Shown piece by piece: positions 3,387 to 26,844 of a DNA stretch of 64,000 nucleotides. Numbering within the stretch: position 1 is the stretch's first letter; every line of letters begins with the position of its first letter. The DNA is from Spirochaeta cellobiosiphila DSM 17781. GTDB lineage: Bacteria > Spirochaetota > Spirochaetia > DSM-17781. The stretch is taken from positions 1 to 64,000 of the forward strand of contig NZ_KE384558.1 in the NCBI RefSeq assembly GCF_000426705.1. Direction: 5' to 3'. The notes under the pieces are model-generated. The model made no database searches. It was not told the origin of the DNA and was given only the letters and a program-made list of their open reading frames with translations. Made by a program: the position numbers and the translations under genes.

Positions 3387-3390
3387 TAAT

Positions 3391-6420: not shown

Positions 6421-6479
6421 GCAGAAAAATAAATATTTTATCCTTAGTACTATAGTTTATAATTGTAGGTTGAATAGAA

Positions 6480-7142: not shown

Positions 7143-7150
7143 GGTACGAT

Positions 7151-7366: not shown

Positions 7367-7378
7367 TCGACCAAAAAA

Positions 7379-7615: not shown

Positions 7616-7627
7616 TTAGGGGAAATT

Positions 7628-8074: not shown

Positions 8075-8089
8075 AACCATGACTGAACC

Positions 8090-9890: not shown

Positions 9891-10402
9891 TTGATTCTAT
9901 AAGAATGAACAAGGAGCTAGGTTCCTCTATTTATAAAAATGAAGATGGGGCTTATTCATATACAGTGCCTAACCAAGGTGTGAAAAATAGTGTGAATCCC
10001 TCTGTTCCTGAAAATGGAGAAGAGGTTGTTGCCAACATACATGCTCATGTAAATGCTACAAATCCAAAATCAGATAGTCTCTCTGAAGGTGATGTAGCAC
10101 AAGCAGAGAAAGATGGATTAGACATATATGTTACTACTCCACAAGGAATGCTTCAAAAATGGGATGTCGATTTGGATGACTTTGATATTATAAGTAATGA
10201 TCTTGCATATGACTCAAAGAATATAAATGAAAAAGGATATGAAAATAATCCAGATGCTTATACAGGTGAAGACAATGAAAAAGTTGGGAAAATAAAAAGC
10301 TTCTTTGAAAGTATTGGTCGATCTAGATATAATAGTGGAGATGACAAAGAAACTTCTTCAGCACAGCATTCATTAAGAGAAGATAATAGTGATGAAAATT
10401 AA
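9869..10402 (+). CDS. DUF4329-like toxin domain, detached from its Rhs carrier
   Basis: The Rhs core frame stops after GEYTALIL, but a different frame opens at ATG 9869, preceded by AGGTGAG, which could act as a ribosome binding site. The 177-residue product has GSSIYKNEDGAYSYTVPNQG, IHAHVNATNPKSDSLSEGD and YVTTPQGMLQKWD. This order matches DUF4329, a domain found at the tips of Rhs-type proteins; its IHxH and SxxD motifs suggest a metal-dependent hydrolase. A charged, Ser/Asp-rich tail ends inside the next gene. Whether it is expressed as a free protein is unclear. Confidence 0.55.
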   Translation: MGRGIYCFDSIRMNKELGSSIYKNEDGAYSYTVPNQGVKNSVNPSVPENGEEVVANIHAHVNATNPKSDSLSEGDVAQAEKDGLDIYVTTPQGMLQKWDVDLDDFDIISNDLAYDSKNINEKGYENNPDAYTGEDNEKVGKIKSFFESIGRSRYNSGDDKETSSAQHSLREDNSDEN

Positions 10403-11093
10403 TAAAAAAATTAATCACCATTCTAAGGGCTCTAAAATACAATGCACTAAATTAATGTTATTCTTGGTAGTTATAGGAATACTTTGTATTTTTGTGTCGA
10501 CGCATTCTATGAGTCTTTGGCAAGATATGGATAAACAGCTGGAGAAAAAAAAAGACTTTGTTTTTCCTGAAATTTTATTTAAGACACTAGAGGCACGTAA
10601 TGGAAAAACTTTCTTTAGAAGAGAAATACTATCAGTAAATTTTGTTCAATATTTATTTTCATTTAATAGCTATTTTGATGACAACTTATCAATTGGAGAA
10701 TCATTATTAGTTGACATTAATTATAATGGTATTTTACCCTCTAAATTCATAAAAAAATTACAGCTTTCTGTAGATTCAATAATATTAAATTTAAAATATG
10801 ATGATAAAGAGTTAGAATATTTATATTTCAAAAATGTAAAATATTATGATGGTGTAGTTGGTGTTGAAGCTTTTATTAAAAAATATTTCCCTAATAAAAA
10901 AAGTAGTAATACTGATATTGAGTACTTTTGGGCAGGATTGTTTGCAGAAGGAACATTACTTAAAATAGTGTCTTCTAGAAACTTTGATGGGGATAACTTA
11001 TATAAAATTTCTGTTTTGACTATAGATAGGATGGATATAGAGGATACAAGAAAAGAAATACTGGTTAATTCTGCCACTACAGTAAAATTTTAG
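10392..11093 (+). CDS. Single-TM protein, putative immunity partner of the DUF4329 domain
   Basis: The ATG at 10392 lies within the last codons of the preceding gene (11-nt overlap), pointing to translational coupling. The 233-residue protein has a basic N-terminus and one membrane helix at about residues 22-41 (LMLFLVVIGILCIFV). The long extracytoplasmic part is rich in Lys, Asp and Asn and contains WAGLFAEGTLLKIV. No family is recognised. The overlap and order support a membrane-anchored immunity role against a toxin acting in the periplasm or envelope, but this is inferred. Confidence 0.5.
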   Translation: MKINKKINHHSKGSKIQCTKLMLFLVVIGILCIFVSTHSMSLWQDMDKQLEKKKDFVFPEILFKTLEARNGKTFFRREILSVNFVQYLFSFNSYFDDNLSIGESLLVDINYNGILPSKFIKKLQLSVDSIILNLKYDDKELEYLYFKNVKYYDGVVGVEAFIKKYFPNKKSSNTDIEYFWAGLFAEGTLLKIVSSRNFDGDNLYKISVLTIDRMDIEDTRKEILVNSATTVKF

Positions 11094-11203
11094 AGAACTA
11101 AGAAAAATTATTTATAATAAAGTTATATACTTATGTGTGTAATCGTAATTTAAAGGTGGTGACTAAATTAATCCAAATTCAAACAATAAATTTAATATCT
11201 CAA

Positions 11204-11513
11204 TCTCAAAAAACATCGCTCCCAGGCCAATCCTCCTAATTTTACAGAAATAGAACCGTCACCACTTAGATAAGATATCTTATCTGGGTAGGGAATTGAT
11301 TTGCCTCTGCGCTCGCATCAAGGCGATTTGAACAAAAAAATGATTCGTTATTGTTAATCAAACCCTGTATGACCTCCCTGTCATTCTGGGCTTTTTTAGT
11401 TCTGGCCGTACAGTTTTTATTATTCCAAAGACCACTTAAGATCTACTGTAGCCATTACCGATGAGGCTGGTGAGAGCTTTGGAGTGCCGAGGACACACCC
11501 TTTGGAGATAAGG
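11204..11513 (+). repeat. Rhs cassette boundary repeat, copy F
   Basis: The copy begins CTCAAAAAACATCGCTCC, carries a perfect 18-bp palindrome at 11268-11285 (half AGATAAGAT), the CTCTGCGCTCGCATC tract, the terminator (11363-11397) and Rhs core codons up to the equivalent of TPFGDKV. The unrelated toxin sequence then starts. Confidence 0.85.
11363..11397 (+). terminator. Terminator in boundary repeat F
   Basis: The arms CCCTGTATGAC and GTCATTCTGGG surround CTCCCT and are followed by C and six T residues. Confidence 0.7.
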
Positions 11514-11882
11514 TTGAAGACATTTTGAATAAATCTTATGCAAAAGCTAAAGAAAGTTATGTTGGAGGGCATTTTTCTTGGGGGAGAAGTTTTTTCTAGG
11601 TAATGTGTTCCTGGATTGGATTGTTCTTCGACTTCACTCATTCAGCCGAAGATGCTACTGGGGGTAATATAACGGATAGAAATGCTAAAACAATGGCAAA
11701 ACGAGCCTAAGCTAGATGGAGTTGCTTGTGTTGGAACAGTAAGATTTTTTGATTGGAATAATGATGAAAACTATGATCATGTTACTACCTCTGTAGAAAA
11801 TGGCAAAGAAGTGCATCCATCACAAAATCAAGGTGAAATAAAAAAGATTACTGGTAGATGTTTAGATAATCTCCCTTATTAG
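11418..11882 (+). pseudogene. Orphan Rhs tip F with truncated toxin remnant
   Basis: The Rhs core stops after the GDKV codons. Frames then change several times. Recognisable pieces are ILNKSYAKAKESYVGGHFSW and, from about 11700, GVACVGTVRFFDWNNDENYD followed by HVTTSVENG. A VRFFDW...DHV arrangement resembles CHAP or NlpC-type amidase domains (GDxxFFDW...HVG), so the lost toxin may have been a cell-wall amidase. The remnant ends at a stop at 11880-11882. The assignment is tentative. Confidence 0.45.
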
Positions 11883-11929
11883 CCAAATACAAAGATAAAG
11901 GAAAGACAATACAATTGGAGGTATATATT

Positions 11930-12373
11930 ATGGGAATGAAAAAGAAAATTATAACAATTTTATTTTGTATATTGAGTTATTATTGTTTCTCAGATGGTTT
12001 CTCAAAGGATGATATTTTATATTTGAATTTGAAAAATGACAAAATAATTATCAATTGTGTTTACTATGATAATTCAAGTGTTCTAAAGAGTTTTACTGGG
12101 GTTCTAGAATCAGATCCTTATTCTATAGTAGTTCGGTTTGAAAACGATGAAATTTATGATATAGATAATAAAATTATAGTTTCTTTTAAGAATTATGATC
12201 CAGCATTTTATGGGTTTAAAATAAAGCCCTCTTATCCTGTGCCTGAAAGCCATTCACCAGGTTTGAATCTTTTTCCTTATTTTTATCCAATAGGATCAGT
12301 GGGTGATTCTCTTTTGATTGTTTGGGATTATAATAAAAGAACTTTTAAGCGTATGATTTTTAGTATTCCTTAA
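11930..12373 (+). CDS. Exported protein with signal peptide, possible immunity protein
   Basis: The ATG at 11930 has GGAGGT nine bases upstream, and an in-frame start 15 nt earlier is less likely. The 147-residue product has a typical signal peptide (KKKIITILFCILSYYCF) and a small Asn/Lys/Tyr-rich mature domain without known motifs. A lipobox is not convincing. If the broken tip F toxin was a periplasmic amidase, an exported immunity protein would fit, but that is inference from position. Confidence 0.55.
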   Translation: MGMKKKIITILFCILSYYCFSDGFSKDDILYLNLKNDKIIINCVYYDNSSVLKSFTGVLESDPYSIVVRFENDEIYDIDNKIIVSFKNYDPAFYGFKIKPSYPVPESHSPGLNLFPYFYPIGSVGDSLLIVWDYNKRTFKRMIFSIP

Positions 12374-12507
12374 AATATAGGTGTGACCGTCAATTTCAAG
12401 GGCGATAAACACCTAATGCTATTCCTCTAAGAATACATATAATAATAGGCAGTATTTTGAGGCAAGTTACTGGGGTAGCGGAAGCTTTTAATTAGTAGGA
12501 ATGAAAA

Positions 12508-12945
12508 ATGATCAATAAAAACAATAAAATACTATTTCTGATATTGATTGTGATGATATCAAGCTTTTCAGTTGTTTATAGTGAAGATGGCAATGATTGG
12601 AATGGTAAATGGATTTTAAGTTATAAAGATCAAGTTAATTTAAAGAAGAATCCATACAAGGCAATAATGCCTTTTATCTTTAATGTTAATTGTAGTACAA
12701 ATTTAAGCATTTCATTTATAGCGTCAACAGAAGTTGTAACTAGTATTTACACAAGAAAGACCACAATTGAGAATCGGTCAGCAGAGTTTGTTATATATGG
12801 ATTTGGAGGTTTAACTTTTAAAGGTAAATTTATTCATGATGGTAAAAACATAAAATATTTTGTTAAAAGTACAGGTATGGAGCCAGACAAAGACTGGGTA
12901 TACATGGGTACATTGATTCATCCATTGGAGGATTATGAACCATAG
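12508..12945 (+). CDS. Exported small protein, unknown
   Basis: This 145-residue protein begins at ATG 12508 after a weak TAGGAATG. A signal peptide (about residues 1-25, ending VVYSE) precedes a mature domain starting GNDWNGKWILSYKDQ. The GNDW/GKW opening recalls the lipoprotein at 1535-1999 (DLSGVWY), suggesting distant relatives or a shared lipocalin-like start. There is no catalytic motif. Like its neighbour it may be an immunity protein without its toxin. Confidence 0.5.
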   Translation: MINKNNKILFLILIVMISSFSVVYSEDGNDWNGKWILSYKDQVNLKKNPYKAIMPFIFNVNCSTNLSISFIASTEVVTSIYTRKTTIENRSAEFVIYGFGGLTFKGKFIHDGKNIKYFVKSTGMEPDKDWVYMGTLIHPLEDYEP

Positions 12946-13102
12946 GAATTGGATAAGTATAAAAAATTAATCGTTTATACTTAGACATAATCAATATTAA
13001 TATACAATGCTCATTATTTGATGGGTATAGAGTCAGTGTCAATTCAACCGGCCCTTATCTATGAAACTCATAAAAAGCATAATTTCTCCCAAAGGAGAAT
13101 AA

Positions 13103-13230
13103 AATGTAGAAACCAGCAACAACACAAGAATGGAAATCCTTCTTTGAAGAAGCCCAGAAATTAGGAAAGATAAGAAAGGAGATAGCAGAAGATCTAGGAA
13201 TCGCCGTTTAAGCTATCGCTTACCATAAGA
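13103..13230 (+). pseudogene. IS66 accessory OrfA-like remnant
   Basis: After a good AAAGGAG an ATG is followed at once by a stop. The frame continues with TQEWKSFFEEAQKLGKIRKE then IAEDLGIAV, a stop and AIAYHKRR. The W...G.....A..L.I......Y...R layout resembles the small HTH protein (TnpA/OrfA) of IS66 elements. It may come from the same element as the remnant at 7151-7366. Low certainty. Confidence 0.4.
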
Positions 13231-13269
13231 GAAGAACTTTCAAAAGGACAACAATTAATAATTTCGTTA

Positions 13270-13535
13270 AATTACCATACCCGTCAACAGGAAAACTTAG
13301 TGATTTTTTATCAAATCTTAATATTTTTACTGGTGAGGATATGAGGTTAATGGGAAAATATAACTAATATAAGTGGGAAGCCTAATGCTATGAGTTTTGG
13401 TAATTATGTTTTTATGCAAAATAGTAGCGAGAATCTATCGGATAGTATATCTCGATTATTGGCTCATGAAAGTGTACATACCTTCAAGAAAAATTATTAC
13501 GAAGAATAAGCGTATGAAATCCAACTTAGATTGAG
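13270..13535 (+). pseudogene. Metalloprotease-like Rhs toxin remnant
   Basis: Broken frames encode GKLSDFLSNLNIFTGEDMRL, then SRLLAHESVHTFKKNYYEE, a stop and AYEIQLRL. The HExxH-like AHESVHT followed by a Tyr/Glu-rich stretch is typical of zinc-dependent tip domains at the end of Rhs-type proteins. No Rhs core remains upstream and at least three stops interrupt the sequence. The next gene begins almost immediately. Confidence 0.45.
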
Positions 13536-13547
13536 GTGTTTATGGCC

Positions 13548-14069
13548 ATGAAGCCAATATTAATGATCTTATTAATTCAGATATTCTCTGTTGGTAATCT
13601 ATTTTCTGATGATCTTTTTGATTTAAATGGTCAATTAATAGATCGAGAAGTTTTTATAGAATTTTATCGTGATAATCCTGAACTTACATTAGAGGGGATT
13701 AAGGATGTTGTTAAGGCTTTAGATTTATATCTCTGGGGTTTTGATGAGATGGGTAATAATTCTGTAAGTGAAGAAGAATTCGTTCATTCTATGTATAAGA
13801 AATATGGTGATAAATTATTGGTTGTCGTTCTTGATAGACTAAAAATAGTATACACGTACTCCAATATTTGTGAAGTAGATCTACCTATAGATTTATTGTT
13901 TGATTGCATATCAGACATATATTTCGATGAAGATAGTTCATATATTAAATCAAAGGATTTTATAGAAAAATATGAATTAATTTTAAATCAGTGGTATCAA
14001 GTCGTACAGAAGGATGATAAAGATATATATATTGTTACAGGTAGAAAGATAATCAATTCAATTAAGTAA
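13548..14069 (+). CDS. Exported protein, putative immunity partner
   Basis: Candidate starts are ATG 13542 and ATG 13548. GAGGTG at 13533-13538 is better spaced for 13548. The 173-residue product has a signal peptide (PILMILLIQIFSVGNLFS) and an acidic mature domain with helices such as LTLEGIKDVVKALDLYLWGF and IDLLFDCISDIYFDEDSSYI. No family is recognised. It follows the HExxH remnant in the usual immunity position and is the last intact gene before the terminal boundary copy. Confidence 0.55.
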   Translation: MKPILMILLIQIFSVGNLFSDDLFDLNGQLIDREVFIEFYRDNPELTLEGIKDVVKALDLYLWGFDEMGNNSVSEEEFVHSMYKKYGDKLLVVVLDRLKIVYTYSNICEVDLPIDLLFDCISDIYFDEDSSYIKSKDFIEKYELILNQWYQVVQKDDKDIYIVTGRKIINSIK

Positions 14070-14110
14070 AGAGATATCTATTTCTAAATGATTGCTTATA
14101 ATATAACAAC

Positions 14111-14260
14111 CTCAAAAAAGTATCACTCCAAGGCAAATCAGCCTGATTATACCGAACCAGGATCTTCGCCCCCTAAGATATCCAATCGGTGAAGGGACTT
14201 GATATCTTTAGACTCGCATCACGGCGATTGGAACTAAATAATGACTAAGTATCATTTAAC
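14111..14260 (+). repeat. Boundary repeat copy G, terminal and degenerate
   Basis: The copy starts CTCAAAAAAGTATCACTCC and follows the common order through the CATCACGGCGATT tract, but the palindrome is ruined (TAAGATATCCAATC) and the copy ends before the terminator and Rhs core. It appears to be the right border of the Rhs cassette array. Confidence 0.75.
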
Positions 14261-14515
14261 CAGTAGCAAGCTTTTGCCCAGCCTATACACCAATTTGGTC
14301 TATAACAATGCTTTCGGATAGATTGTCTGAATTCTCTGATAGAGTAACTTCTGGTATCATATTGGTAAACAGAATAATAAAACAATAATTCTTTTCATAA
14401 TAATCGCCATATAAATGTAGGCAAGCTGTCATGCAATAATCGCTTTTCTGAAAACGGTTTTAATGGGAAAATATTACAGGTTCCAATCACTCTTCACACA
14501 GGAGTATGATTTAAA
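14261..14515 (-). other. Intergenic stretch with a possible decayed exported-protein start
   Basis: On the minus strand a signal-like MKRIIVLLFC, followed after a frameshift by MIPEVTLSENSDNLSES, can be read between about 14412 and 14300. Stops occur soon after. No intact gene or RNA was seen. Confidence 0.25.
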
Positions 14516-14967: not shown

Positions 14968-17106
14968 GTGAAAATTCCAGAGACTCTCAAACGCTTAAGA
15001 CAAGTGGCGTCTGCTGATAATGGTTTTTTTGTTCTAGCGTTGCACTCATTTATTGAAGCCCAGATCAGAGAACAATTAGACTTGTTACCTGAAAGTCGTT
15101 ATGAATACGGTGAACTATTGGATCTATACAGAGTCCTCCACAATGGAAAGTTCCCGATGGATCTTCTTTGTTCCCTCACTAAAAATCATCAACTTAGCAA
15201 TACTGTCCGTCATCAATGCAGGAATGTCTTAGATTCTGAATCTCAAAATAGTTTATCTTTACTTATTAGGTTTTGTGATGCTACTGGTCTTAGTGTCGAA
15301 CATATAGACGATGTAAAAGCCCTGGAAGAACTAATCACTGATTGGGCAAAACGAATACCAGAAACTAAGTACCATAATGAAATGCTCATTCTTCAAAAAG
15401 AACTAAAGGATCTTCGAGAAAAGAACTTCATCAACACACAAAGAATCTCAGAGTATCAAGTTGCATGGAAGGAAAAGCAAGACCTTGAAAGGAAGCTGTC
15501 CTCAACCTTGTCTGAACTTCATCAACTTCAATCAAGGGCAAAAGACAGGAAAGAGGAACGAAAGGAATTACGTGTAGAAGTCTTTGAGAGTCATAGAAGG
15601 ATAAAAAGCCTTACTGAGGCTATCAATGCAAGTCAGAATAAATTAGAAGAATATAAGTCCATTTCTGACTCCTTAGATATATTTAAAAGAATGCTTCATC
15701 TATCACAAAGCCGAAGAGGCTTTGAAGATAGGATACTTCGATTAACAGAAGAACAGGGACGTATTCTCAGAGACATCAATTTTAAAAAAGATTTTATGAT
15801 CAAGGGATCCGCAGGTACAGGAAAGAGTCTGGTTTTGCTTAAATCTCTAGAAACATACCTGATACAAAACGAATCACCAGATCTTGGCCTTCAAAAAAAA
15901 CTTCCTGTTGTCTTCCTGACTTATACAAGAACTTTGGTGAATTACAATCATTATCTTGCAGGACTGATGAATTTAGATGCTCATTTGGACGTAGAATACA
16001 CCACTGCTGATCATCTTCTCACCAAGGTCTGCAAAGGAATACTAGGAATAAATGAACTTTTTAATACAGATGAATTATGGAGAAAATCGTCCATAACTAT
16101 TGATATGTCTGATAAGGCACTAGTGAGGGAATTAAGAAGTTTCTTATGGGCCTATGGATATAGTCGTGAAGACTACATTGATAAAATGATTCATAGACAA
16201 GGGATGAAGGATTCCTTAAATCGGAAGACCAGAGAAGTTATATGGCAGGCCAAGACTGAGTTTGAAGCTTATATGGATGATCATAAATGTTATAGCTTTA
16301 GTTACCTGTATTATAAAACATATCTTTTGTGGAAAGAGGATCCTCCTAAAGTGGTTTATGATAAGGTCTTTTTGGATGAAGCCCAAGACCTGACTATGGT
16401 TAAGCTTTTTCTATTAAAAACTCTAAGCCGAGGGGCTATGATAATGGCCTCTGATCTTGATCAAAGTATCTATACTCCCTTAAGTCCTTTTCCCCGAAGT
16501 GGTATCCAACTTCAGGGAAATACAAGAATTATTCACACAAACTTTCGAAATACTTTTCAAATACATGAGCTGGCTGAACGTTTTCGCTGTGGTACTTCCC
16601 ATGATAGCGACCAGCATCCAACAGCGTTCAGAGAAGGACCGAGAAGTATTCTGCATCGATCAGATAGTTCTGAAATGGCAGATCAAACACTTATAGAACG
16701 TCTGAGATTCTATCATGATCAGTTGGATTTTGAATGGGATAACCTCGCAGTGATTTCTAGTGCGAATGATAAAAGCCGCAAAGGGGTAACAGAATTAATG
16801 GATATAAATGCTATTCCTTATGTTCGTGTTGATAGGGATTTTGATTTCAATCAAAACGGGGTGCGAATTATGACACTCTTCAACGCTAAGGGACTTAGTT
16901 TCCCAGTTTGCTTTATTCATCTCACAGATACCCTTTGGTGGCTAAAAAAGGAATATTCAGAAGAAAGAGCTAACAAAGTGAAAACAAACCTTCTTTATGT
17001 AGCATTGACAAGAGCAATGGATTGCCTTGAGGTCATTGTAAAAAATGGTGAGGATCATATTGTTAATGAACTCATAAGTTGTTTCGATGCAGAGAGTGAT
17101 AGCTAA
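14968..17106 (+). CDS. N-terminal domain + coiled coil + SF1 (UvrD/Rep-like) helicase
   Basis: The GTG start at 14968 has AAAGGAAT upstream. The 712-residue product has three parts. Residues 1-120 form a helical domain (FFVLALHSFIEAQIREQL) of DUF4145/HEPN-like look. Residues 135-235 are a long coiled coil. Residues 255-712 are a superfamily-1 helicase with Walker A GSAGTGKS near 280, FLDEAQDL near 470, a DLDQSIY motif III, NFRNT, FNAKGLSFPV and LLYVALTRA near 678. All core ATPase motifs are present and no nuclease domain is seen. It lies 71 nt upstream of cas3 on the same strand. It may be a stand-alone defence helicase or a CRISPR accessory. Confidence 0.75.
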   Translation: MKIPETLKRLRQVASADNGFFVLALHSFIEAQIREQLDLLPESRYEYGELLDLYRVLHNGKFPMDLLCSLTKNHQLSNTVRHQCRNVLDSESQNSLSLLIRFCDATGLSVEHIDDVKALEELITDWAKRIPETKYHNEMLILQKELKDLREKNFINTQRISEYQVAWKEKQDLERKLSSTLSELHQLQSRAKDRKEERKELRVEVFESHRRIKSLTEAINASQNKLEEYKSISDSLDIFKRMLHLSQSRRGFEDRILRLTEEQGRILRDINFKKDFMIKGSAGTGKSLVLLKSLETYLIQNESPDLGLQKKLPVVFLTYTRTLVNYNHYLAGLMNLDAHLDVEYTTADHLLTKVCKGILGINELFNTDELWRKSSITIDMSDKALVRELRSFLWAYGYSREDYIDKMIHRQGMKDSLNRKTREVIWQAKTEFEAYMDDHKCYSFSYLYYKTYLLWKEDPPKVVYDKVFLDEAQDLTMVKLFLLKTLSRGAMIMASDLDQSIYTPLSPFPRSGIQLQGNTRIIHTNFRNTFQIHELAERFRCGTSHDSDQHPTAFREGPRSILHRSDSSEMADQTLIERLRFYHDQLDFEWDNLAVISSANDKSRKGVTELMDINAIPYVRVDRDFDFNQNGVRIMTLFNAKGLSFPVCFIHLTDTLWWLKKEYSEERANKVKTNLLYVALTRAMDCLEVIVKNGEDHIVNELISCFDAESDS

Positions 17107-17177
17107 GGATAGCACAGGTAAGTTTTTTACCCACATAGATCTACTGATGAGAAGTAATATAAAAAAGGAAGTTAGAA

Positions 17178-19745
17178 ATGATATTGAAGAAACCAAAGGA
17201 TTTATCAGATCATAATCAACCTGCCTTAGATTTACAACATTGTATTGCAAAGACTATAGAGGATGAAGAATCTGGACAGATAAAAGCAGGACAGAGCATT
17301 GAACTACATTGCAAGATCGTAGGATTGGTTGCTCGTGAGTTGTTAAGCCGAATGCCCGATAACATGAGGAACAATCTCTATCCAAAAGGGGCTGAGCTTG
17401 TTGCTGCGGCTCATGATATTGGAAAGGTAAATCCATTATTCCAAGAAAAAATAAGACGAAATCTAAGTAATTATCAACATAATTCTGAACCAAGTCTTAA
17501 AGGTATTAATCCCAATTTGGAAAAAGAAACTGGTTACCATTGGACTGTTAGTCGTGCCGCTTTAAGTGAAATAAGTAACAGTTCTGCTATGATTGTAGGC
17601 CAGCACCATGGCGTGAAGCCAAATCAGTCCTATAGTGATGATAAAAATATTGCCGTCTTTGGTGGATCGAATTGGCAAAAGGTACGGGAAAAGCTAATTC
17701 TTAGCCTTGAAGACTATCTTAAGGAAGACTGGCCTATCATGGATCAAGATGAAATATGGACTCCATTGAATATCCTGGGGTTGACCACCGTATCCGATTG
17801 GATAGGGTCAGGTCCTGCTTTGTCCAATATACTTGCTATAGAGTCAGAAGATAATCTTATAGATTTAGTAAGAGATGTGGTGGATAAGGCAGGATTTGTA
17901 GTGCCCCAAATTAAAAAGGGTCTTTCTTTTGCTGAAGTGTTTGATGGATATAATCCACGTCCCATGCAAGAGCAAATGATTGATATGGTACAGGATCAAG
18001 GGCTCTATATTCTGGAAGATCGTATGGGGCAAGGAAAGACAGAGGCCGCACTCTATGCTGCCTACAGACTTATGGAAAGAGGTTTAGCCAGTGGTATATA
18101 TTTTGCTCTTCCAACACAGCTAACATCAGAGAAGATACATGAGCGTTTTGAGCGCTTCCTAGATTGTATCCTAGACTCTACAGATCAACACCGAAGCCTC
18201 CTGGTTCATAGTAAGTCCTGGCTCCTGGATACCGAAATGGGCGAGGATGGTCGCCCTGGGTATTCTTGGTTTAACTCCCGCAAAAGGGGCTTACTTGCTC
18301 CTTTTGCAGTGGGAACCATTGATCAAGCTCTCATGTCTGTCATGAATGTGAAACATGGTTTTGTTCGAGCTTTTGGTTTAGCTGGTAAGGTCGTTATTCT
18401 GGATGAAGTGCATTCTTATGATGCCTATACAGGAACTATTATTGATCATCTTGTCAGAGGATTAAGAGAACTTGGGGCTACAGTGATAATGCTTAGTGCC
18501 ACCTTGACAACGGAAAGAAAAAAAGCTCTTTTATCCTATACCTCTCCAATGCCCCATTCCTATCCCTTACTCTCCTATAAGAATGTATATGATGATATCA
18601 CCTATTCACAAGCTATAGAAACAGAACAAAAGACTTATATACTTCATTCAACCGCAGATGAAGAATCTGTCAACGAGTTCGTCATGGACAAAGCCCAGAA
18701 GGGACAATATGTTCTGTGGATTGAGAATACAGTTGAAGACGCGCAAAAGGTCTTTTTGTTATTTGCTAATTATGAAAAAGAGTTAGGAATAGAAGTAGGT
18801 CTTATTCATTCCCGTTTTCTCCCTGATGACAGAGCACGACTGGAAGAATATTGGACTGGTGTCTATGGAAAAATCCGAGGCTCTAATAATAAAGGTGGAA
18901 AGATTCTTGTGGGAACACAGGTTCTGGAGCAGTCTTTGGATATTGATGCAGATTTTCTTGTGACGCGTTTAGCCCCTATGGATATGTTGTTACAAAGAAT
19001 GGGGCGTCTATGGAGACATTCCTGTGTAGATCCCTATCGTACAGATGAGGCACGACCAGAAGTATTTATTCTAATGCCTAACGAAGAGGAGATTCAAAGT
19101 AATTCTTCCTGGTGTTTTGGTCCTTCTGGTGCTGTTTACTCTCCTTATATTCTAGCTCGGAGTGCTGAAGTCCTAGCAGAACGCTCGAATATCACCTTAC
19201 CTGAAGACTTTCGATCTCTCATTGAAGCTGTTTATGCTCCAAGAAAGGATCCAACTTACTTGAATAATGTTAAATCTGAACTAGAGCAAAGGATAACAAA
19301 GCTTGGACAATTGGCACGGGTAAGTTTATCTATGGCTGTTCAAATAAGTAATGATGATGTTTCAACCCGCTATACTGACGTGGAAACTGTAGAAGTTCTT
19401 ATCATAAAAGATATGATTTTCGGTTCCTCTCCTGAAATTATTCTAGTGAATGGTGCTAGATTATCTCTATCTTATCCAGTAGGAGATAGAAAAGCCAAAA
19501 GGCAAATTGCTCAATCCCTTTCTCGGAATATTATGACTGTTCCTATCTCTAAAGCTCCTGACCGTGTGATAAAGGGAGAACTCAGTATTCTTAAACCTTT
19601 TCTATATATCGAACCTGATTCGCCATCATCTTTAAGAGTAATCAAGCTAAAAGCTAGTGGAATGCTTGAAGGTCTCAATGGCCGACCAGGGCATGATCAA
19701 TATGAACTTTACTATAGCCAGGACATTGGCTATCAGAAAAAATAG
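17178..19745 (+). CDS. cas3: CRISPR-associated helicase-nuclease Cas3 (type I-E)
   Basis: Cas3 is recruited by Cascade to degrade target DNA. The 855-residue protein starts at ATG 17178 behind AAGGAAG. The N-terminal HD nuclease is intact: the HD pair in AAHDIGK at residues 79-80 and a following VGQHHGVKP. The helicase has Walker A DRMGQGKTEA near 283, LDEVHSYD near 409, MLSATLT, and motif VI QRMGRLWRH near 604. The length is normal for single-chain HD-helicase Cas3. It is the first cas gene, separated by 14 nt from cas8e, so the cas genes form one operon. Confidence 0.95.
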   Translation: MILKKPKDLSDHNQPALDLQHCIAKTIEDEESGQIKAGQSIELHCKIVGLVARELLSRMPDNMRNNLYPKGAELVAAAHDIGKVNPLFQEKIRRNLSNYQHNSEPSLKGINPNLEKETGYHWTVSRAALSEISNSSAMIVGQHHGVKPNQSYSDDKNIAVFGGSNWQKVREKLILSLEDYLKEDWPIMDQDEIWTPLNILGLTTVSDWIGSGPALSNILAIESEDNLIDLVRDVVDKAGFVVPQIKKGLSFAEVFDGYNPRPMQEQMIDMVQDQGLYILEDRMGQGKTEAALYAAYRLMERGLASGIYFALPTQLTSEKIHERFERFLDCILDSTDQHRSLLVHSKSWLLDTEMGEDGRPGYSWFNSRKRGLLAPFAVGTIDQALMSVMNVKHGFVRAFGLAGKVVILDEVHSYDAYTGTIIDHLVRGLRELGATVIMLSATLTTERKKALLSYTSPMPHSYPLLSYKNVYDDITYSQAIETEQKTYILHSTADEESVNEFVMDKAQKGQYVLWIENTVEDAQKVFLLFANYEKELGIEVGLIHSRFLPDDRARLEEYWTGVYGKIRGSNNKGGKILVGTQVLEQSLDIDADFLVTRLAPMDMLLQRMGRLWRHSCVDPYRTDEARPEVFILMPNEEEIQSNSSWCFGPSGAVYSPYILARSAEVLAERSNITLPEDFRSLIEAVYAPRKDPTYLNNVKSELEQRITKLGQLARVSLSMAVQISNDDVSTRYTDVETVEVLIIKDMIFGSSPEIILVNGARLSLSYPVGDRKAKRQIAQSLSRNIMTVPISKAPDRVIKGELSILKPFLYIEPDSPSSLRVIKLKASGMLEGLNGRPGHDQYELYYSQDIGYQKK

Positions 19746-19759
19746 AGAGGAGATAAAGT

Positions 19760-21256
19760 ATGAATCATCATTTTAACTTGATCGATGAAGCCTGGATTCC
19801 TATTGCAGATGCCGGTCTGGTGAGTCTGAAAGAAATCTTTGACAACAAAAACCTAAAAACAATAGGAGGTAATGCCGTTCAAAAGATTTCTTTGCTTAGG
19901 TTCTTTTTGGCTATCGCCCAGGCAGCTTGTACTCCCGAGGATGATAAAGCCTGGGCTGATCTGACTAGTCATGGTATGGCACAACTCTGTCTAGGATATC
20001 TTGATGATAAAAAAGAACTCTTTAACTTGTATGGAGACAAGCCATTTCTTCAGATGCCTGTTCTGAAAGAAAAAAACACTAAAATACAACCTTATTATGT
20101 CCTTCTTCCCGAATTAGCTTCGGGCAATACCACAGTGCTTTTTGATTCGCAGATGGATAATGAGATGACGGATGCTCAAAAAGCTCTTCTTCTCTTAAGA
20201 ATAGGTGGGTTTGCTACATCGGGTAAGCAGGTGGATAACACAATCATTTTATCTTCGACCTATAAGGGAAAAACCAAGGATAATGGTAAAGCTACCTCTG
20301 GTAAATTTGGGCCTTCCTTAGCTTTTCAAGGATTACAACACCATTTTTGGCAGGGCAGGACATTAAAAGAGACAATCTATCAGAATCTTTTTACCAGTCA
20401 GGATATTCAAAATATGGGAATCTTTATGACAGGTCTTGGCATTCCTCCATGGGAGAAAATGCCAGAAAGTGAGGATGATGATACTGCTAAAACTTTATTA
20501 AGCTCTTACCTAGGTAGACTAATGCCTTTGTCTAGATTTGTTTTGTTAGCGGAATCAGGCGTTTATTATACTGAAGGTCTGGCTTATCCTAACTATGCTG
20601 AGGGGATCTGGGATCCTTCTATTGCCATCGACAGTACCCAAAAAAAGATTAAGACATTGTGGGTTAGTACGGATAAAAAGCCTTGGCGAAGTATTAGCTC
20701 TTTTCTTTCTTTTTTAGACTCAGAAAAGGAGTCTTTTACAAACTTTCAGTTGAAACTTCCTTTTAGAAGGATTAAAAAACATTGTGATATTACTGGCATA
20801 TGGGCGGGAGGTCTTAAAGTCAGTAGTAATGCAGGAGAGCAGTATTGTTCTGGAACTGATGATTACATAGCGTCACTAATACTACTTGATCCAAAACAAA
20901 TGGGAGGCACCTGGTTCCCCAGTGTCAAGTCAGCCTTAGCTACAATCGATTCACATTCAAAAAGATTGTATAGATGTCTCTCTGAGTATAACAGATCCCT
21001 TCGTATTGATAATAAGGATAAAATCAATAAAGACATGTCTCTCTACTGGAATCAAGTGGAATTAGTTTTCACAAAGCTTATTCAAAAAGAAATTAATGAA
21101 ACTGATCTAGATGCATTCCATAATCATTCCAAAAAGATAGTAGAGCAAATCTATGATGCTTCTTGTCCTAAACAGACAGCAAGACAGCTTAAGTCATGGG
21201 CAGAGCATTATCCCCGTATAAAAAAGATTACTATAGAGGAGGTAAAAGTTGGATGA
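19760..21256 (+). CDS. casA: Cascade large subunit Cas8e (Cse1/CasA)
   Basis: This is the large subunit of the type I-E effector; it recognises the PAM and recruits Cas3. The 498-residue protein starts at ATG 19760 after AGAGAGGAG. The N-terminus FNLIDEAWIPI and the early SLLRFFLAIAQAAC are typical of Cse1. The Gly-rich FGPSLAFQGLQHHFWQGRTL corresponds to the family region around the L1/PAM-sensing part. The C-terminus is helical, ending in a Lys-rich bundle. It overlaps cse2 by 8 nt. Confidence 0.92.
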   Translation: MNHHFNLIDEAWIPIADAGLVSLKEIFDNKNLKTIGGNAVQKISLLRFFLAIAQAACTPEDDKAWADLTSHGMAQLCLGYLDDKKELFNLYGDKPFLQMPVLKEKNTKIQPYYVLLPELASGNTTVLFDSQMDNEMTDAQKALLLLRIGGFATSGKQVDNTIILSSTYKGKTKDNGKATSGKFGPSLAFQGLQHHFWQGRTLKETIYQNLFTSQDIQNMGIFMTGLGIPPWEKMPESEDDDTAKTLLSSYLGRLMPLSRFVLLAESGVYYTEGLAYPNYAEGIWDPSIAIDSTQKKIKTLWVSTDKKPWRSISSFLSFLDSEKESFTNFQLKLPFRRIKKHCDITGIWAGGLKVSSNAGEQYCSGTDDYIASLILLDPKQMGGTWFPSVKSALATIDSHSKRLYRCLSEYNRSLRIDNKDKINKDMSLYWNQVELVFTKLIQKEINETDLDAFHNHSKKIVEQIYDASCPKQTARQLKSWAEHYPRIKKITIEEVKVG

Positions 21257-21767
21257 TAAACAGTCTAGCACATTCGTAAAACTTGTTATGGAGCGCTGTC
21301 ATGGTAGTCAGGACAAGGGGTACCGTGCAAAGCTACGCAAAGGGGAGAATCCCAATACAGAATACTACTGTTGGGATATCTTAAGTTCTTATGTCAATCT
21401 GGAATATCCAGATGATAGACGTGTCTATGCTCTCATAGGTGCTGATATTGCTAATAGAGATGTAACTGTTGACGGTGAGTATGGATTGGGAGAGGCACTG
21501 GCTATGGCCTATCAGGATCATGAGCACAGTAAGGATGATACAGGTCCAGGAGGAGCTAGGTTGAGACGTCTCTTAGCTTGCCAGAATCGAAAGGATCTAT
21601 TATTAGTCTTGCCTTCACTGCTTCATTTATTACGTTCCAAAGGTATAACTATCAATCATAGTAGGCTCTTGGAAGAAGTTTTTTGGTTTGACAGGGAAGA
21701 TAGTCGCGAGCGGACCAGAAGTCTTTGGGCTAAACAGTTCTACCATGATTGGCGAGGCGAATCATGA
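21249..21767 (+). CDS. casB: Cascade small subunit Cse2 (CasB/Cas11)
   Basis: The TTG start at 21249 is chosen because GAGGAGG lies seven bases upstream and no ATG fits. The 172-residue helical, basic protein has the RAKLRKGENP opening and GARLRRLLACQ, features of the small subunit that lines the R-loop in type I-E Cascade. It ends at TGA 21765-21767, overlapping the ATG of cas6e (ATGA). Translation is likely coupled on both sides. Confidence 0.9.
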   Translation: MDDKQSSTFVKLVMERCHGSQDKGYRAKLRKGENPNTEYYCWDILSSYVNLEYPDDRRVYALIGADIANRDVTVDGEYGLGEALAMAYQDHEHSKDDTGPGGARLRRLLACQNRKDLLLVLPSLLHLLRSKGITINHSRLLEEVFWFDREDSRERTRSLWAKQFYHDWRGES

Positions 21768-22342
21768 TTCTCTCCCAAATATCACTAAGTCCAAGAGATA
21801 TAAGCAAAGAAGAGATTCATGATGAATATGGTATTCATAAACTTGTTTATGATCTATTTCCTGGAAATTCTCGAGACTTCCTTTATCAGGAAATGCCAGG
21901 AGATAGAGCCCTGAGAAAAATTCTTGTCCTCTCTCAGAACACACCATCTAATAATAAAAATCTTAATATCAGGAGCAAGGATCTTCCTATGAGCTATCTG
22001 GATTGGTCTGAGTATATGTTTAAAGTCCGCCTCAATCCTGTTAGAAATGTAAAAGGCTTTAAGAACAAAAAACCAGTAATCGGAAGAGAAGAGCTTTTGG
22101 ACTGGTTTTGTGGTAGAAGTCAGCAGTGGGGATTTTCCCCTTATAGGGACAATCTGGAAGTCTCAGAAGTTGGCAGTATTAGCTTCAAAAGCAAGGGAAA
22201 TAATTTACGATTTCATCAAGCTATGTTCTCTGGCATTTTGAAAGTCGAAGATAAAACGCTATTTAGAGAATCATTTACTAAAGGATTAGGCCGGGGAAAA
22301 GCTTTTGGTTTCGGTCTGTTACAGTTAAAACCACTGAATTGA
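21764..22342 (+). CDS. casE: crRNA endoribonuclease Cas6e (CasE)
   Basis: Cas6e cleaves the precursor CRISPR RNA at the base of the repeat hairpin. The start is ATG 21764 in an ATGA overlap with cse2, giving the canonical beginning MILSQISLSPRD. The predicted catalytic His lies in YGIHKLVYDLF near residue 28. The C-terminal Gly-rich loop GLGRGKAFGFGLL is present. The length of 192 residues fits the family. The position between cse2 and cas7 differs from the common order, in which cas6e follows cas5. Confidence 0.92.
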   Translation: MILSQISLSPRDISKEEIHDEYGIHKLVYDLFPGNSRDFLYQEMPGDRALRKILVLSQNTPSNNKNLNIRSKDLPMSYLDWSEYMFKVRLNPVRNVKGFKNKKPVIGREELLDWFCGRSQQWGFSPYRDNLEVSEVGSISFKSKGNNLRFHQAMFSGILKVEDKTLFRESFTKGLGRGKAFGFGLLQLKPLN

Positions 22343-22359
22343 TTAAGGAGAAAATAAAA

Positions 22360-23415
22360 ATGAGTGTAGGGAACTTACAAGGATTAAAATTAGAATTTCA
22401 TATATTACAGAGCTTTCCTGTGACCTGTTTGAATAGGGATGATGTTGGCGCTCCCAAGACAGCTATTGTTGGGGGAACGACAAGGGCTCGGGTCAGTAGT
22501 CAAGCATGGAAGCGTCAGGTTCGGATGGAACTTCACAACCTGGGAATAAAGCTGGGAGTTCGTACTAAAAGAATCAAAGAGCTAATAGTTAAAAAAATGC
22601 TAGAGCAAGGAGCCTCTGATGAACAGGCAGAGACTTGTGCAATAGAAATAGCTAAGCACTTATCTAAGGATACTCTCCATTTTTTTACAGATCAAGAAGC
22701 AGAAGGATTGGCAGAATATGCCAAATCTCTAGAATATAAAGCCTCTGATATCAAGAAGACTGACGTTTACAAAGAACATAAAAAGTTCTTCAATCCTGCT
22801 GCTGATGGCCTGGACATAGCTTTATTTGGAAGGATGGTCGCTCAAGCTCCAGAGTTAAATATTGAAGCATCTTGTTCTTTTAGTCACGCTATTTCGACTC
22901 ATAAAGTTAATAATGAATTGGATTTCTTCACTGCAATCGATGATTATCCTGATTCTGATGAGATTCAAACAGGTTCCTCCCACATGGGAACGTTGGAGTT
23001 TAACTCAGCTACTTATTATCGCTATATTTCAGTTAATCTTGGACAACTAGTGGATACCTTGGGAGAAGATGGTGATATCAATTCATCTATCATGGCTTTT
23101 ATTAAAGCTCTGTATCTAGCAGTACCACAAGCACGGCAGACTACTCAGGCTGGTTTCAATCAATGGGACTACGCTAAAGTATATCTTCGAAAAGGACAGA
23201 ATCTCCAAGTTTGTTTTGATAAGGCTGTGAAAAGTAAGGGCGATGGATATCTTTCTGAAAGTATTTCTACATTGGATCAAGCTCTCAAGTCTAAAGAGAG
23301 TAAGGCTGGATCCTTATTCGGCAAAGTACAAGAATGGACCTGGGGATTGGATGATTCCTATAGTATGGATGATTTGATAGAAGGTATCACCTCAGCTCTG
23401 GAGGGAGTTCATTGA
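22360..23415 (+). CDS. casC: Cascade backbone Cas7e (Cse4/CasC)
   Basis: Several copies of this protein coat the spacer part of the crRNA. The start is ATG 22360, nine bases after AAGGAG; an in-frame upstream TTG at 22339 would include the ribosome binding site itself. The 351-residue product shows the diagnostic LNRDDVGAPKTAIVGG and TTRARVSSQAWKRQVR near the N-terminus, and later QARQTTQAGFNQWDYA. It lies directly after cas6e (17 nt) and one base before cas5. Confidence 0.95.
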   Translation: MSVGNLQGLKLEFHILQSFPVTCLNRDDVGAPKTAIVGGTTRARVSSQAWKRQVRMELHNLGIKLGVRTKRIKELIVKKMLEQGASDEQAETCAIEIAKHLSKDTLHFFTDQEAEGLAEYAKSLEYKASDIKKTDVYKEHKKFFNPAADGLDIALFGRMVAQAPELNIEASCSFSHAISTHKVNNELDFFTAIDDYPDSDEIQTGSSHMGTLEFNSATYYRYISVNLGQLVDTLGEDGDINSSIMAFIKALYLAVPQARQTTQAGFNQWDYAKVYLRKGQNLQVCFDKAVKSKGDGYLSESISTLDQALKSKESKAGSLFGKVQEWTWGLDDSYSMDDLIEGITSALEGVH

Positions 23416-23416
23416 T

Positions 23417-24130
23417 ATGAAGTATTTACTTCTATGGTTAGAAGGTCCTTTTCAGAGCTGGGGTGTAGACTCAAAATTCTGGCGTAGGGATTCACTAGAC
23501 TTTCCCACAAAATCAGGCCTCTTCGGTCTTTATTTATCAGCCCTTGGGGCTAGAGGGAGTCAGGAAGATCTATTAGCACAGCTCGCAGAGTATAAGCAGA
23601 ATATATTTGCTTACTGGAAGACGGAGAACCAAACCAGTACTTTGATAGATTTTCATATGGTAGGTAGTGGGTATGACAGCAAGAATTCTTGGCAAAAAAA
23701 TATGATTCCCAAGACTATTGAAGGAAAGTCCGCGGTAGGTGGGGGGGCAAAGTTGACTTACCGTTACTATTTACAGGATATGGCTTTTGGCGTGATTCAG
23801 GAACTAGAGGATGATCTTAGTTATCTTATAGGGAAATCCTTACGAGAACCTGTATTTGATCTGTATCTAGGTCGTAAGAACTGTATACCTAGTGAGATCC
23901 TCTATCGAGGAGAATATGATTACTATAATGAGGCTGAGATAGAGTTGAAAAAAATAGTAGAAAGCATATCCTCTGATGATCATAATCTTGAGCTTCATAA
24001 AAGCTTTCATATCAAAGACGGTGCTTTTGAGGATGAGGGAGAAGTTTTGACTCTTAACGATATTCCAATTAGATTTGGTCGCTTAAAATCCTACCGAGAT
24101 AGACAGGTAACTCTTGTGAATTATGAGTGA
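23417..24130 (+). CDS. casD: Cascade Cas5e (CasD)
   Basis: Cas5e binds the 5' handle of the crRNA and caps the backbone. The ATG at 23417 follows GGAGGGAG. The 237-residue protein has the characteristic LLLWLEGPFQSWGVDSKF start, DFPTKSGLFGLYLSALGA, and a DFHMVGSG motif followed by TYRYYLQD, as in other Cas5e. The end overlaps cas1 by 8 nt. Confidence 0.94.
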   Translation: MKYLLLWLEGPFQSWGVDSKFWRRDSLDFPTKSGLFGLYLSALGARGSQEDLLAQLAEYKQNIFAYWKTENQTSTLIDFHMVGSGYDSKNSWQKNMIPKTIEGKSAVGGGAKLTYRYYLQDMAFGVIQELEDDLSYLIGKSLREPVFDLYLGRKNCIPSEILYRGEYDYYNEAEIELKKIVESISSDDHNLELHKSFHIKDGAFEDEGEVLTLNDIPIRFGRLKSYRDRQVTLVNYE

Positions 24131-24980
24131 GGAAAAGAATAAAAGACTATTTATCAAGATAAATAGAAACAATCTTCCTCAAGTGAAGGATAAATATCCA
24201 TTTATTTATCTGGAACGAGGGAGATTGGAGATCGATGATAGTAGTGTCAAATGGATTGATAGTGAAGCAAACCTTGTTCGTCTTCCTATAGCTATGCTTA
24301 ATGCTATTCTTCTTGGTCCTGGAACCAGTATAACTCATGAAGCTGTTAAGGTTATAACAGCTTCTAATTGTATGATCTGTTGGGTAGGTGAGGATAGTAT
24401 GCTTTTCTATGCTGTTGGTCAAAGTCCTACCTCAGATACTAGAAATATGAGAAAACAAATGGAACTTGCCATAAATGGAAAGAAACGTGTTGAAGTAGCC
24501 AGAAGGATGTTTTCCAGAAGATTTCCTCAAGAAAATGTCAGTCAAAAATCTTTAAAAGAGTTAATGGGTATGGAAGGATTGAGAGTTAGAAGATTATATG
24601 AGTCTAAAGCAAAGGAATATGGTGTTGGTTGGAAAGGACGTCAGTACACTCCAGGAAAATTTGAGCTGGGAGATTTGACCAATCAGATTCTGACTTCTTC
24701 CAACGCCGCCCTCTATGGCATACTGACATCAGCTATCTATTCTCTGGGATATTCTCCTCATGTTGGATTTGTTCATTCTGGTAGCCCATTACCCTTTGTT
24801 TATGATATGGCAGACTTGTATAAAGAAGATCTATGTATAGATCTTGCATTCTCTTTGACTTATGAAATGGGAGGCAAATACAATAAACATAGAGTGGTAG
24901 AGGACTTCAGGAAACGTGTTATTCAAAACAAATTGCTGGAAAATATTGGAAAGGATATTACCATGGCTTTAGGAAAGTAA
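24123..24980 (+). CDS. cas1: Spacer integrase Cas1 (type I-E)
   Basis: Cas1 is the catalytic subunit of the Cas1-Cas2 integrase that adds new spacers at the leader end. The 285-residue protein starts at ATG 24123 within the end of cas5. The three metal ligands expected for Cas1 can be placed: Glu in MEGLRVRRLYE, His in GFVHSGSPLPF and Asp in VYDMADLYK. The C-terminus is helical. The system therefore looks competent for adaptation. Confidence 0.95.
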   Translation: MSEEKNKRLFIKINRNNLPQVKDKYPFIYLERGRLEIDDSSVKWIDSEANLVRLPIAMLNAILLGPGTSITHEAVKVITASNCMICWVGEDSMLFYAVGQSPTSDTRNMRKQMELAINGKKRVEVARRMFSRRFPQENVSQKSLKELMGMEGLRVRRLYESKAKEYGVGWKGRQYTPGKFELGDLTNQILTSSNAALYGILTSAIYSLGYSPHVGFVHSGSPLPFVYDMADLYKEDLCIDLAFSLTYEMGGKYNKHRVVEDFRKRVIQNKLLENIGKDITMALGK

Positions 24981-24982
24981 CT

Positions 24983-25270
24983 GTGGTTGTGGTTATAGCC
25001 AATAATTTACCGCCAGCTGTCAGAGGTAGAATGAAACTCTGGTTTGTGGAGCCTAGAGCTAATGTCTTTGTCTCTGGAATAAAGGATAGTGTGGCAGAAG
25101 GTGTGATCAAATACCTCTTTGAATCCTGTCCTGCTAATTCAGGTCTTCTGGTGATGCAGAGAATTAATAAAGCTCCTTATTATAAAATATGGGGTATGGG
25201 CGATCCAAAGCATAGGATTGCAGAAATTGATGGATTACAACTGATCTTTGAAAAATTAGGGATGGATTAG
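24983..25270 (+). CDS. cas2: Cas2e
   Basis: The GTG at 24983 follows AGGAAAG, 2 nt after cas1. The 95-residue protein begins MVVVIANNLPPAVRGRMKLW and continues EPRANVFVSG, the signature of the I-E form of Cas2, which pairs with Cas1 in spacer integration. The end of the gene is 49 nt from the first repeat, so part of the leader function may lie within the coding sequence. Confidence 0.95.
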   Translation: MVVVIANNLPPAVRGRMKLWFVEPRANVFVSGIKDSVAEGVIKYLFESCPANSGLLVMQRINKAPYYKIWGMGDPKHRIAEIDGLQLIFEKLGMD

Positions 25271-25319
25271 TACCGCTATATATGGTACCTAAGTATAAGG
25301 TTGAACTCTATATGTCGCT
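25271..25319 (+). promoter_or_regulatory. CRISPR leader (very short)
   Basis: The 49 bases between cas2 and the first repeat are AT-rich and include TATATATGG and a TACC...GGTA inverted pair. Position, array polarity and decay of the opposite end all mark this side as the leader. It is shorter than usual I-E leaders, and no clear -35/-10 pair is visible. Confidence 0.6.
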
Positions 25320-26811
25320 GTCTTCTCCGCGTAGGCGGAGGTGTTTCTTGATTCAAGCTCTTTTCTTGATGTATTAATATGTCTTCTCCGCGTAGGCGGA
25401 GGTGTTTCTGGAAGCAAGACAGAAGAAGATAATTCCCTTGAGTCTTCTCCGCGTAGGCGGAGGTGTTTCTAAAATTATTGCGGCAGTTATTAAACCTATA
25501 GGGTCTTCTCCGCGTAGGCGGAGGTGTTTCCAGCTATAGACATTCGTCCTATTGCTGTACCTGGTCTTCTCCGCGTAGGCGGAGGTGTTTCTAAAATGGT
25601 TCCACAATTAGGAAGCACGTTAAGGTCTTCTCCGCGTAGGCGGAGGTGTTTCCGTATTAAAGTAATGTGGGCTTCTTTGGGAGAAGTCTTCTCCGCGTAG
25701 GCGGAGGTGTTTCTATATCTTGTTCGGCCATTTCCAGAAATGCCACGTCTTCTCCGCGTAGGCGGAGGTGTTTCTTCTTTTGCTTTTATTGCAACTGTTT
25801 TAGCTACGTCTTCTCCGCGTAGGCGGAGGTGTTTCTATTTCTTCGTCGGTTGGTAAAGTCTCGGGTATGTCTTCTCCGCGTAGGCGGAGGTGTTTCCCAT
25901 ATACCCTACTTTCTTTTTTATGACATTACGTCTTCTCCGCGTAGGCGGAGGTGTTTCTTCATAAACAGTATGCGTTCTCTCCCCATCTCCGTCTTCTCCG
26001 CGTAGGCGGAGGTGTTTCTACTTCTTCCATTTTAATCTCCATCAGGATAAAGTCTTCTCCGCGTAGGCGGAGGTGTTTCCAAGTCAGACTAAAGGCGCAC
26101 CAAGTGTGAGAGGTCTTCTCCGCGTAGGCGGAGGTGTTTCTACAGAGGGCGACGTCGAGCAAGCTATAAGCGTGTCTTCTCCGCGTAGGCGGAGGTGTTT
26201 CTTTAAGGAGTTAGCCGGGAATTCTTTTGTGATAGTCTTCTCCGCGTAGGCGGAGGTGTTTCCATCAAAGGCCGTTTGTTCTATTTCTTTTACTAGTCTT
26301 CTCCGCGTAGGCGGAGGTGTTTCCATCCAAGCATGAATCTTAAAGCATTAAGAGCAGTCTTCTCCGCGTAGGCGGAGGTGTTTCTGACGCAACAGAAGAA
26401 TTTATGTATATGTCAAGGTCTTCTCCGCGTAGGCGGAGGTGTTTCTAACAGGAGCAGTAAGCAGCTATGCATCAAAAAGTCTTCTCCGCGTAGGCGGAGG
26501 TGTTTCCTACATTTAATCATTTGATACAATGTCCCCAAGTCTTCTCCGCGTAGGCGGAGGTGTTTCTGGGATCGTATAACTTTTGGACTGTAAACCCCCG
26601 TCTTCTCCGCGTAGGCGGAGGTGTTTCTTCATTAGCAATCTTACCCCACTGCCCATATTTGTCTTCTCCGCGTAGGCGGAGGTGTTTCTCCTTGGCTTCG
26701 TCCATTTTTCCTTTCTCCTTTGTCTTCTCCGCGCAGGCGGAGGTGTTTCTACTACTGACCTAATCTGCCATAGCTTATCTTCGTCTTCTCCACATAGGCG
26801 TAGGCATTTTT
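25320..26811 (+). CRISPR. Type I-E CRISPR array, 24 near-identical repeats plus one decayed
   Basis: Repeats of 29 nt start every 61 nt from 25320, with spacers of 32 nt; the spacer after repeat 20 is 31 nt. Each repeat has the hairpin CTCCGC-GTAG-GCGGAG and ends GTGTTTCY. Repeats 1-23 are identical apart from the last base. Repeat 24 (26722) has one change in the loop, and repeat 25 (26783) is clearly degenerate. The orientation that gives the usual I-E handle is the plus strand, reading away from cas2. Base 29 is T in 17 and C in 7 of the first 24 repeats, never A or G. Spacers show no obvious match within this window. Confidence 0.97.
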
Positions 26812-26844
26812 AGTAAACAAGTATTAAGAGGTTGTTAGGAAAAT

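Follow-up and report, generated by a model that had tools for sequence, protein, structure and literature searches.

A putative HEPN-fold/coiled-coil/SF1 helicase antiviral effector of spirochaetes, encoded beside a type I-E CRISPR operon in Spirochaeta cellobiosiphila

The window analysed here is a stretch of 64,000 nucleotides from Spirochaeta cellobiosiphila DSM 17781. An intact open reading frame at positions 14968-17106, the only long ORF there, encodes a protein of 712 residues and begins at a GTG codon preceded by an AAAGGA-type ribosome site. As the original prediction stated, the gene is on the same strand as cas3 and ends exactly 71 nt before it. Its neighbours are an ORF of 81 aa and cas3, which belongs to a type I-E operon complete with all eight genes. 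The gene is present in a single copy in this genome. The features of the locus are as follows.

14968..17106, + strand: HEPN-fold/coiled-coil/SF1 (UvrD-like) helicase gene, 712 aa, GTG start
14968..15351, + strand: predicted N-terminal HEPN-fold domain, residues 1-128 (AF2 model, structural matches, alignment of 68 sequences)
15361..15708, + strand: predicted coiled coil, residues 132-247 (long helices in the AF2 model; weak SMC/Rad50-type matches)
15736..17097, + strand: SF1 helicase core, residues 257-710 (Pfam, structure match, motif alignment)
17107..17177, no strand: gap of 71 nt to cas3 (17178); promoter and terminator undetected in an uninformative scan
17178..25270, + strand: type I-E operon cas3-cas8e-cas11e-cas6e-cas7e-cas5e-cas1e-cas2e; a neighbour, outside the proposed system
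25319..26815, no strand: CRISPR array with a period of 61 nt and a repeat of 28-29 nt, GTCTTCTCCGCGTAGGCGGAGGTGTTTC; a neighbour

Nothing resembling a separate promoter or terminator had been noticed in the gap before cas3. The scan carried out here also finds neither, but it says little about the gap because the yield of such sites over the whole region is no higher than that of shuffled sequence. Co-transcription with cas3 is for the same reason neither shown nor excluded. No gap in the run is wider than these 71 nt; all those between the cas genes are -19 to +14 nt. Just to the left of the helicase gene, positions 1-14300 of the window look like an array of Rhs/polymorphic-toxin C-terminal cassettes. 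Rhs-core tails are repeated there, with a 63-nt unit at 1049, 2226, 5857, 8208, 9810 and 11421 which reads about TDEAGEKLWSAEYTPFGDKV, and small unrelated ORFs separate the copies.

An AF2 model of the full protein, built on 20 homologues (pLDDT 80), consists of an all-helical head (residues 1-127), a stretch of long helices (132-247) and a helicase core. The long helices bear out the long coiled coil that had been proposed for this part of the protein. Significant Pfam matches are confined to the helicase domains, UvrD_C (2e-9) and UvrD-helicase (2e-8), both above the cut-off. All the SF1 motifs are present: Q (residues 259-263), I (280-287, Walker A GSAGTGKS), II (468-474, DEAQD), III (494-502, with D496 and Q499), IV (524-529, TNFRNT), V (635-646) and VI (674-684, YVALTRA). 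Across 68 homologues, the key residues of these motifs vary little or not at all. The AF2 core aligns with DNA-bound UvrD over 409 residues (Z 26.7, rmsd 3.5). UvrD and PcrA are the nearest structures (Z 25-27), and Rep likewise aligns. With its Walker A motif, DExQD box and motifs III-VI, the protein is of the SF1 UvrD/Rep type, and the claim of a complete UvrD-type helicase is upheld. As motifs IV and V are only about 105 residues apart, a spacing that appears to leave no room for it, a 2B domain of the UvrD type is probably absent.

The N-terminus had been described as HEPN/DUF4145-like. When residues 1-143 were modelled separately on 68 sequences (AF2; pLDDT 91, pTM 0.83), a HEPN-like four-helix fold was predicted. 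On structural re-alignment, HEPN proteins take up almost every one of the top 24 rows, led by MntA-HepT (Z 9.0), MtlR/YggD (8.4), sacsin HEPN (8.0), AbiV (8.0) and Csm6 (7.4), and unrelated folds appear from Z about 6.5 down; the Z values are moderate and the agreement of the match list is strong. Foldseek with the N-terminal domain alone gave non-significant E-values throughout (best 1.3, HepS), so the assignment is made through structural alignment and motif placement. Weak HEPN_RiboL-PSP profile matches were obtained in 6 of the 68 family members. The HEPN part of the description thus stands, but the DUF4145 part does not: no profile match to DUF4145 (PF13643) was found in the window protein or in the family members searched.

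Conserved residues of the domain are R9, D17, E30 (as E-x3-R34), N78-x-V-R81-H82 and W126. Among the 68 aligned sequences, E30 is retained in all, H82 in 67, R81 in 64 and N78 in 61. H82 is the conserved histidine that ends the motif helix, and R81 adjoins it. The placement of E30/R34 and of H82 fits the published description of HEPN domains, in which a conserved acidic residue occurs in helix 2 as E-x3-[K/R] and a histidine closes the motif helix (PMC3710099). The arginine of the catalytic Rx4-6H motif is missing in 68/68 members, position 77 in its stead being T in 44, S in 10 (including S77 of the window protein), A in 8, V in 5 and I in 1, and RNase activity is therefore not assured. Going by the predicted fold and its altered motif, the domain is possibly an active HEPN or an RNA- or partner-binding form of one.

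These observations bear on one alternative, in which the HEPN domain is catalytically dead and serves only for RNA or protein binding and dimerisation, while the motor blocks phage replication or unwinds nucleic acid for partner nucleases in the manner of GajB or UvrD. The loss of the arginine in every aligned member and the nearness of the core to UvrD and PcrA agree with such a role, and HEPN families without the Rx4-6H motif are thought to be non-catalytic (PMC3710099). However, families that lack the arginine and keep the histidine are thought possibly active (PMC3710099), and the conservation of E30, N78, R81 and H82 at the positions of the HEPN active site, where the long helix ends and in helix 2, speaks for a functional site. 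We regard a dead HEPN domain as possible but doubtful.

Relatives were searched in 297 genomes of the host class (spirochaetes) at E <= 1e-25. The family was found in 58 of them, with most matches spanning N-terminus to C-terminus; the N-terminus, coil and helicase thus occur together as a full-length family. When 84,980 species genomes were scanned, 80 loci were recovered, nearly all from Spirochaetota, and 79 of the 80 fetched could be anchored. The two longest branches of the family tree include that of the window protein, which shares about 32% identity with its nearest relative. Several genomes have two or three copies (three at most), and split or broken copies occur as well. At L039:1-3477 two copies lie in tandem, head to tail, and split copies are seen in L049, L082 and L098; tandem and split copies are a sign of fast turnover.

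Outside the spirochaetes, full-length members were found in MAGs labelled Bacillota (L056 and L063; Epulonipiscium and Ruminococcus), and the two are sisters in the tree; either transfer or mis-binning may account for them. In the Bacillota sample, the whole architecture was present only in G300, the genome of L056. Elsewhere in that sample the matches fall mostly in the helicase, and both of the clear ORFs inspected (L284, L286) start with it, so the HEPN-coil front is not general. The family, previously unnamed and undescribed, is almost purely spirochaete. Carriage by phages or plasmids was considered and rejected: phage records gave no match to the query, no plasmid match reached 80% query coverage, the N-terminal half of a relative matched nothing on plasmids, and IMG/VR gave helicase-core fragments only.

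The proposal that the helicase is an accessory of type I-E interference or adaptation was addressed in three ways. None of 1,000 ORFs from 80 homologue loci matched any of the window's eight Cas proteins (blastp, 1e-5); the window apart, homologue loci carrying I-E cas genes numbered 0/79. Thirteen other spirochaete I-E-type operons, 7 of them complete and in the same gene order (Cas1 60-76% identical) and 6 more divergent and I-E-like, have no helicase homologue in the 9-20 kb fetched around them (0/13). Across the 297 genomes, Cas1 was listed in 16/58 with the family and in 89/239 without it (odds ratio 0.64, p 0.22). No homologue besides that of the window lies near a listed Cas1, and pairs on the same contig are separated by some 500 kb or more. 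Linkage to I-E cas genes is therefore not recurrent: of the loci examined, only that in the window shows it. The genome has a second Cas1 on another contig (G000:C27:135910-136590), which the general Cas1 profile fits better.

An accessory role, in which the helicase processes Cas3 products or feeds DNA ends to Cas1-Cas2 and is co-transcribed with cas3, draws on the shared strand, the short distance to cas3 with no obvious terminator between, and a base composition similar to that of the cas genes. With all three comparisons against it and the widest gap of the run separating the two, such a role is very improbable, and the window protein is probably not a CRISPR part.

Homologues of the gene are scattered, but they occur together with defence genes. 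The neighbour set comprised 252 ORFs, up to two on each side of the family genes, which were compared with PADLOC profiles in two batches. They match 293 and 223 PADLOC families, against 75 for 126 length-matched control ORFs from elsewhere in related genomes, counts which overstate the contrast because helicases match many models, so that individual strong matches matter more. Most of the control matches are methyltransferase models matched by one ORF. Among the neighbours are helicases of the DruE/YprA type (L027, L056 and L100; that of L026 is 61% identical to that of L027) and of the MkoA/MkoC type (L033, L042, L093), a DpdE/ZorD-type SNF2 protein (L062), SspH (L068), PDC-S68 and TmtA-like matches (L089) and an RT-associated/GajB-type helicase with a Cas4-like end (L051). 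In L056 the family gene directly follows a full-length DruE. The family is located in mixed defence islands of Druantia/YprA, Mokosh-type, Dpd/DISARM-type, Ssp and PDC genes; such a location alone proves no function.

UvrD-family SF1 helicases are mostly repair enzymes. The gene could accordingly encode an ordinary DNA repair or RNA metabolism helicase found by chance in variable regions, but its patchy distribution, the multiple or broken copies in single genomes, the defence genes next to it, the overlapping operon with YprA, SNF2 and methyltransferase genes described below and the linkage to RtcR make this improbable. The other suggestion of the original prediction, an independent anti-phage system, is favoured by the island context, by the patchy, multi-copy family and by the members that accompany other defence helicases; phage defence is a predicted role.

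RtcR-type regulators recur beside the relatives. At the family loci they consist of CARF, sigma-54 AAA and HTH_8 domains, with PF06956 above the cut-off in L024 and L091; RtcR-like matches in L043, L070 and L072, which cover the AAA part only, were left out. In L024, L026, L027, L047 and L091 the regulator lies just upstream of the family gene and is read in its direction, with one small coiled-coil gene intervening in L024. That of L027 is broken in two frames, that of L047 lies at a contig edge, and in L037 RtcR is a convergent neighbour of the HEPN-helicase. The RtcR-linked members are scattered over the family tree. Of 29 genomes with a strong RtcR match, 14 carry the family (odds ratio 4.75, p 0.0002 over 297 genomes, uncorrected for phylogeny). 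RtcR and the family lie within 20 kb on one contig in 8 of the 21 genomes that have both, against 0.36 expected at random.

RtcR is also seen near BREX BrxC in the absence of the family (L264:198-3737), so that clustering in defence islands may explain part of the linkage. Another copy is near an apparent type III CRISPR cluster (L271:8753-20000). This distribution suggests that RtcR relatives are general regulators of defence islands in spirochaetes. Sigma-54 promoters directly upstream of family genes showed no excess over shuffled sequence; RtcR control would therefore need a promoter further upstream or co-transcription. The genome of the window has no RtcR homologue and no YprA operon adjoins the gene, and the linked versions may thus differ from the window gene.

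In a few relatives the gene is part of a larger operon. Loci L027 and L279 are one contig, on which the broken RtcR is followed by four genes that successively overlap by 25, 4 and 4 nt:

L027/L279 5469-7628: HEPN-helicase
L027/L279 7604-12844: YprA/DruE-like helicase
L027/L279 12841-15774: SNF2 helicase, DpdE/DrmD-like
L027/L279 15771-19625: Eco57I-type (PglX-like) methyltransferase

L026 repeats the first four genes of L027, from RtcR to the SNF2 helicase, at 55-69% identity, and its contig yielded no methyltransferase. L100 has the helicase-YprA pair with a 4-nt overlap. In ARMADA, ArmD joins a RelE RNase to a UvrD helicase; it is required for defence, and the lysine of its Walker A motif is needed to withstand phage (PMC12458937). 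In gene content the L027 operon matches the ARMADA type II set, with HEPN in the place of RelE. The term HEPN is absent from the main text of that paper (PMC12458937). The RtcR link and the ARMADA-like operon of the HEPN-helicase family are new here.

The window protein resembles ArmD in having an N-terminal RNase-type domain and a UvrD-like SF1 helicase (that of ArmD is GajB-like), and the L027 relative shares its operon with YprA, SNF2 and Eco57I/PglX-type methyltransferase genes as in ARMADA (PMC12458937). It differs in that the family has a HEPN fold and a coiled coil where ArmD has RelE; no RelE-like domain was recognised, the N-terminus being modelled as HEPN. The order in L027 also differs, with the HEPN-helicase first, and the ARMADA set of YprA, SNF2/BrxHII-like and PglX-like genes is absent beside the window gene. 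CoCoNuT systems of types II and III likewise combine an SF1 helicase, a HEPN RNase and coiled coils with an RtcR-like CARF sigma-54 regulator upstream, but their CnuH is UPF1-like and is a separate protein from the HEPN effector CnuE (PMC11090510). CoCoNuT operons also include an McrB-type GTPase with a coiled coil; among the neighbours tabulated for the family loci, genes of the McrB/McrC type were not noticed.

With Gabija GajB and the PADLOC model C3a187 (NERD+UvrD) the UvrD-type helicase module is shared. The best PADLOC score of the window protein is to NERD+UvrD (70.7 bits, helicase part only), and GajB models match it in the core helicase motifs only; its N-terminus is HEPN-like rather than NERD, and the gene has no neighbour like GajA (OLD/TOPRIM), the adjacent partner of GajB. 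Fusions of HEPN with an SF1 helicase in a defence setting have been described as the HEPN/SF-I helicase/Vsr proteins (Hhe) and as DUF4145-UvrD fusions (PMC3710099). The former are giants with transglutaminase, Vsr and wHTH domains, whereas the latter carry the DUF4145 domain that is undetected in the window protein. Human SLFN11 and SLFN14 also have an RNase-type N-terminus, a linker and an SF1 helicase core (SLFN11: Z 24.5 with the AF2 core, 299 residues); the Schlafen core fold is unrelated to HEPN and the likeness is an analogy only.

Taken together, the gene is best read, at a probability of roughly 0.6, as encoding a putative modular HEPN-helicase antiviral effector that is independent of the adjoining CRISPR operon. 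Most likely the SF1 motor would engage invading or replicating phage nucleic acid, and the coiled coil would couple it to a dimer of HEPN domains. Translation or phage gene expression would come to a halt as the dimer cuts RNA, or at least binds it. In some relatives, the adjoining RtcR-like CARF/sigma-54 regulator could increase expression in response to RNA ends that bear 2',3'-cyclic phosphate; as HEPN cleavage would itself yield ends of this kind, a positive feedback would result. In a few, the HEPN-helicase would be one subunit of the larger ARMADA-like operon with YprA, SNF2 and the PglX/Eco57I methyltransferase.

The CARF domain of RtcR binds tRNA halves with 2',3'-cyclic phosphate ends (PMC7790460), and a link between RtcR-like CARFs and CoCoNuT operons that carry HEPN has been described (PMC11090510). 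A broader and tentative reading, possible on present evidence, is that the HEPN-coiled-coil-SF1 family forms an immune module triggered by RNA damage, in which RtcR senses cyclic-phosphate ends and switches on a HEPN-helicase that acts alone or plugs into helicase-based systems, as in the ARMADA-like operon where HEPN replaces RelE. Defence subunits that combine an RNase with a helicase are coming to light (ArmD, CnuH/CnuE of CoCoNuT), and a HEPN version recurs in spirochaetes. A false lead, that of a new I-E accessory, is replaced by a testable family. Given the repeated pairing with RtcR, one small gene pair would suffice to test directly whether broken RNA switches on phage defence.

A recurrent cluster of small genes was also observed beside RtcR (L257:3326-8930, L259:5138-7972, L262:2265-4320, L263:3769-8231, L264:5078-6605). 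It encodes apparently membrane proteins of about 454, 295, 185, 310 and 185 aa with no strong PADLOC match. The last of these (185 aa) carries RYTPRDLTN-KDFARELxxIDSNQTL, and the cluster is perhaps an undescribed system under RtcR control.
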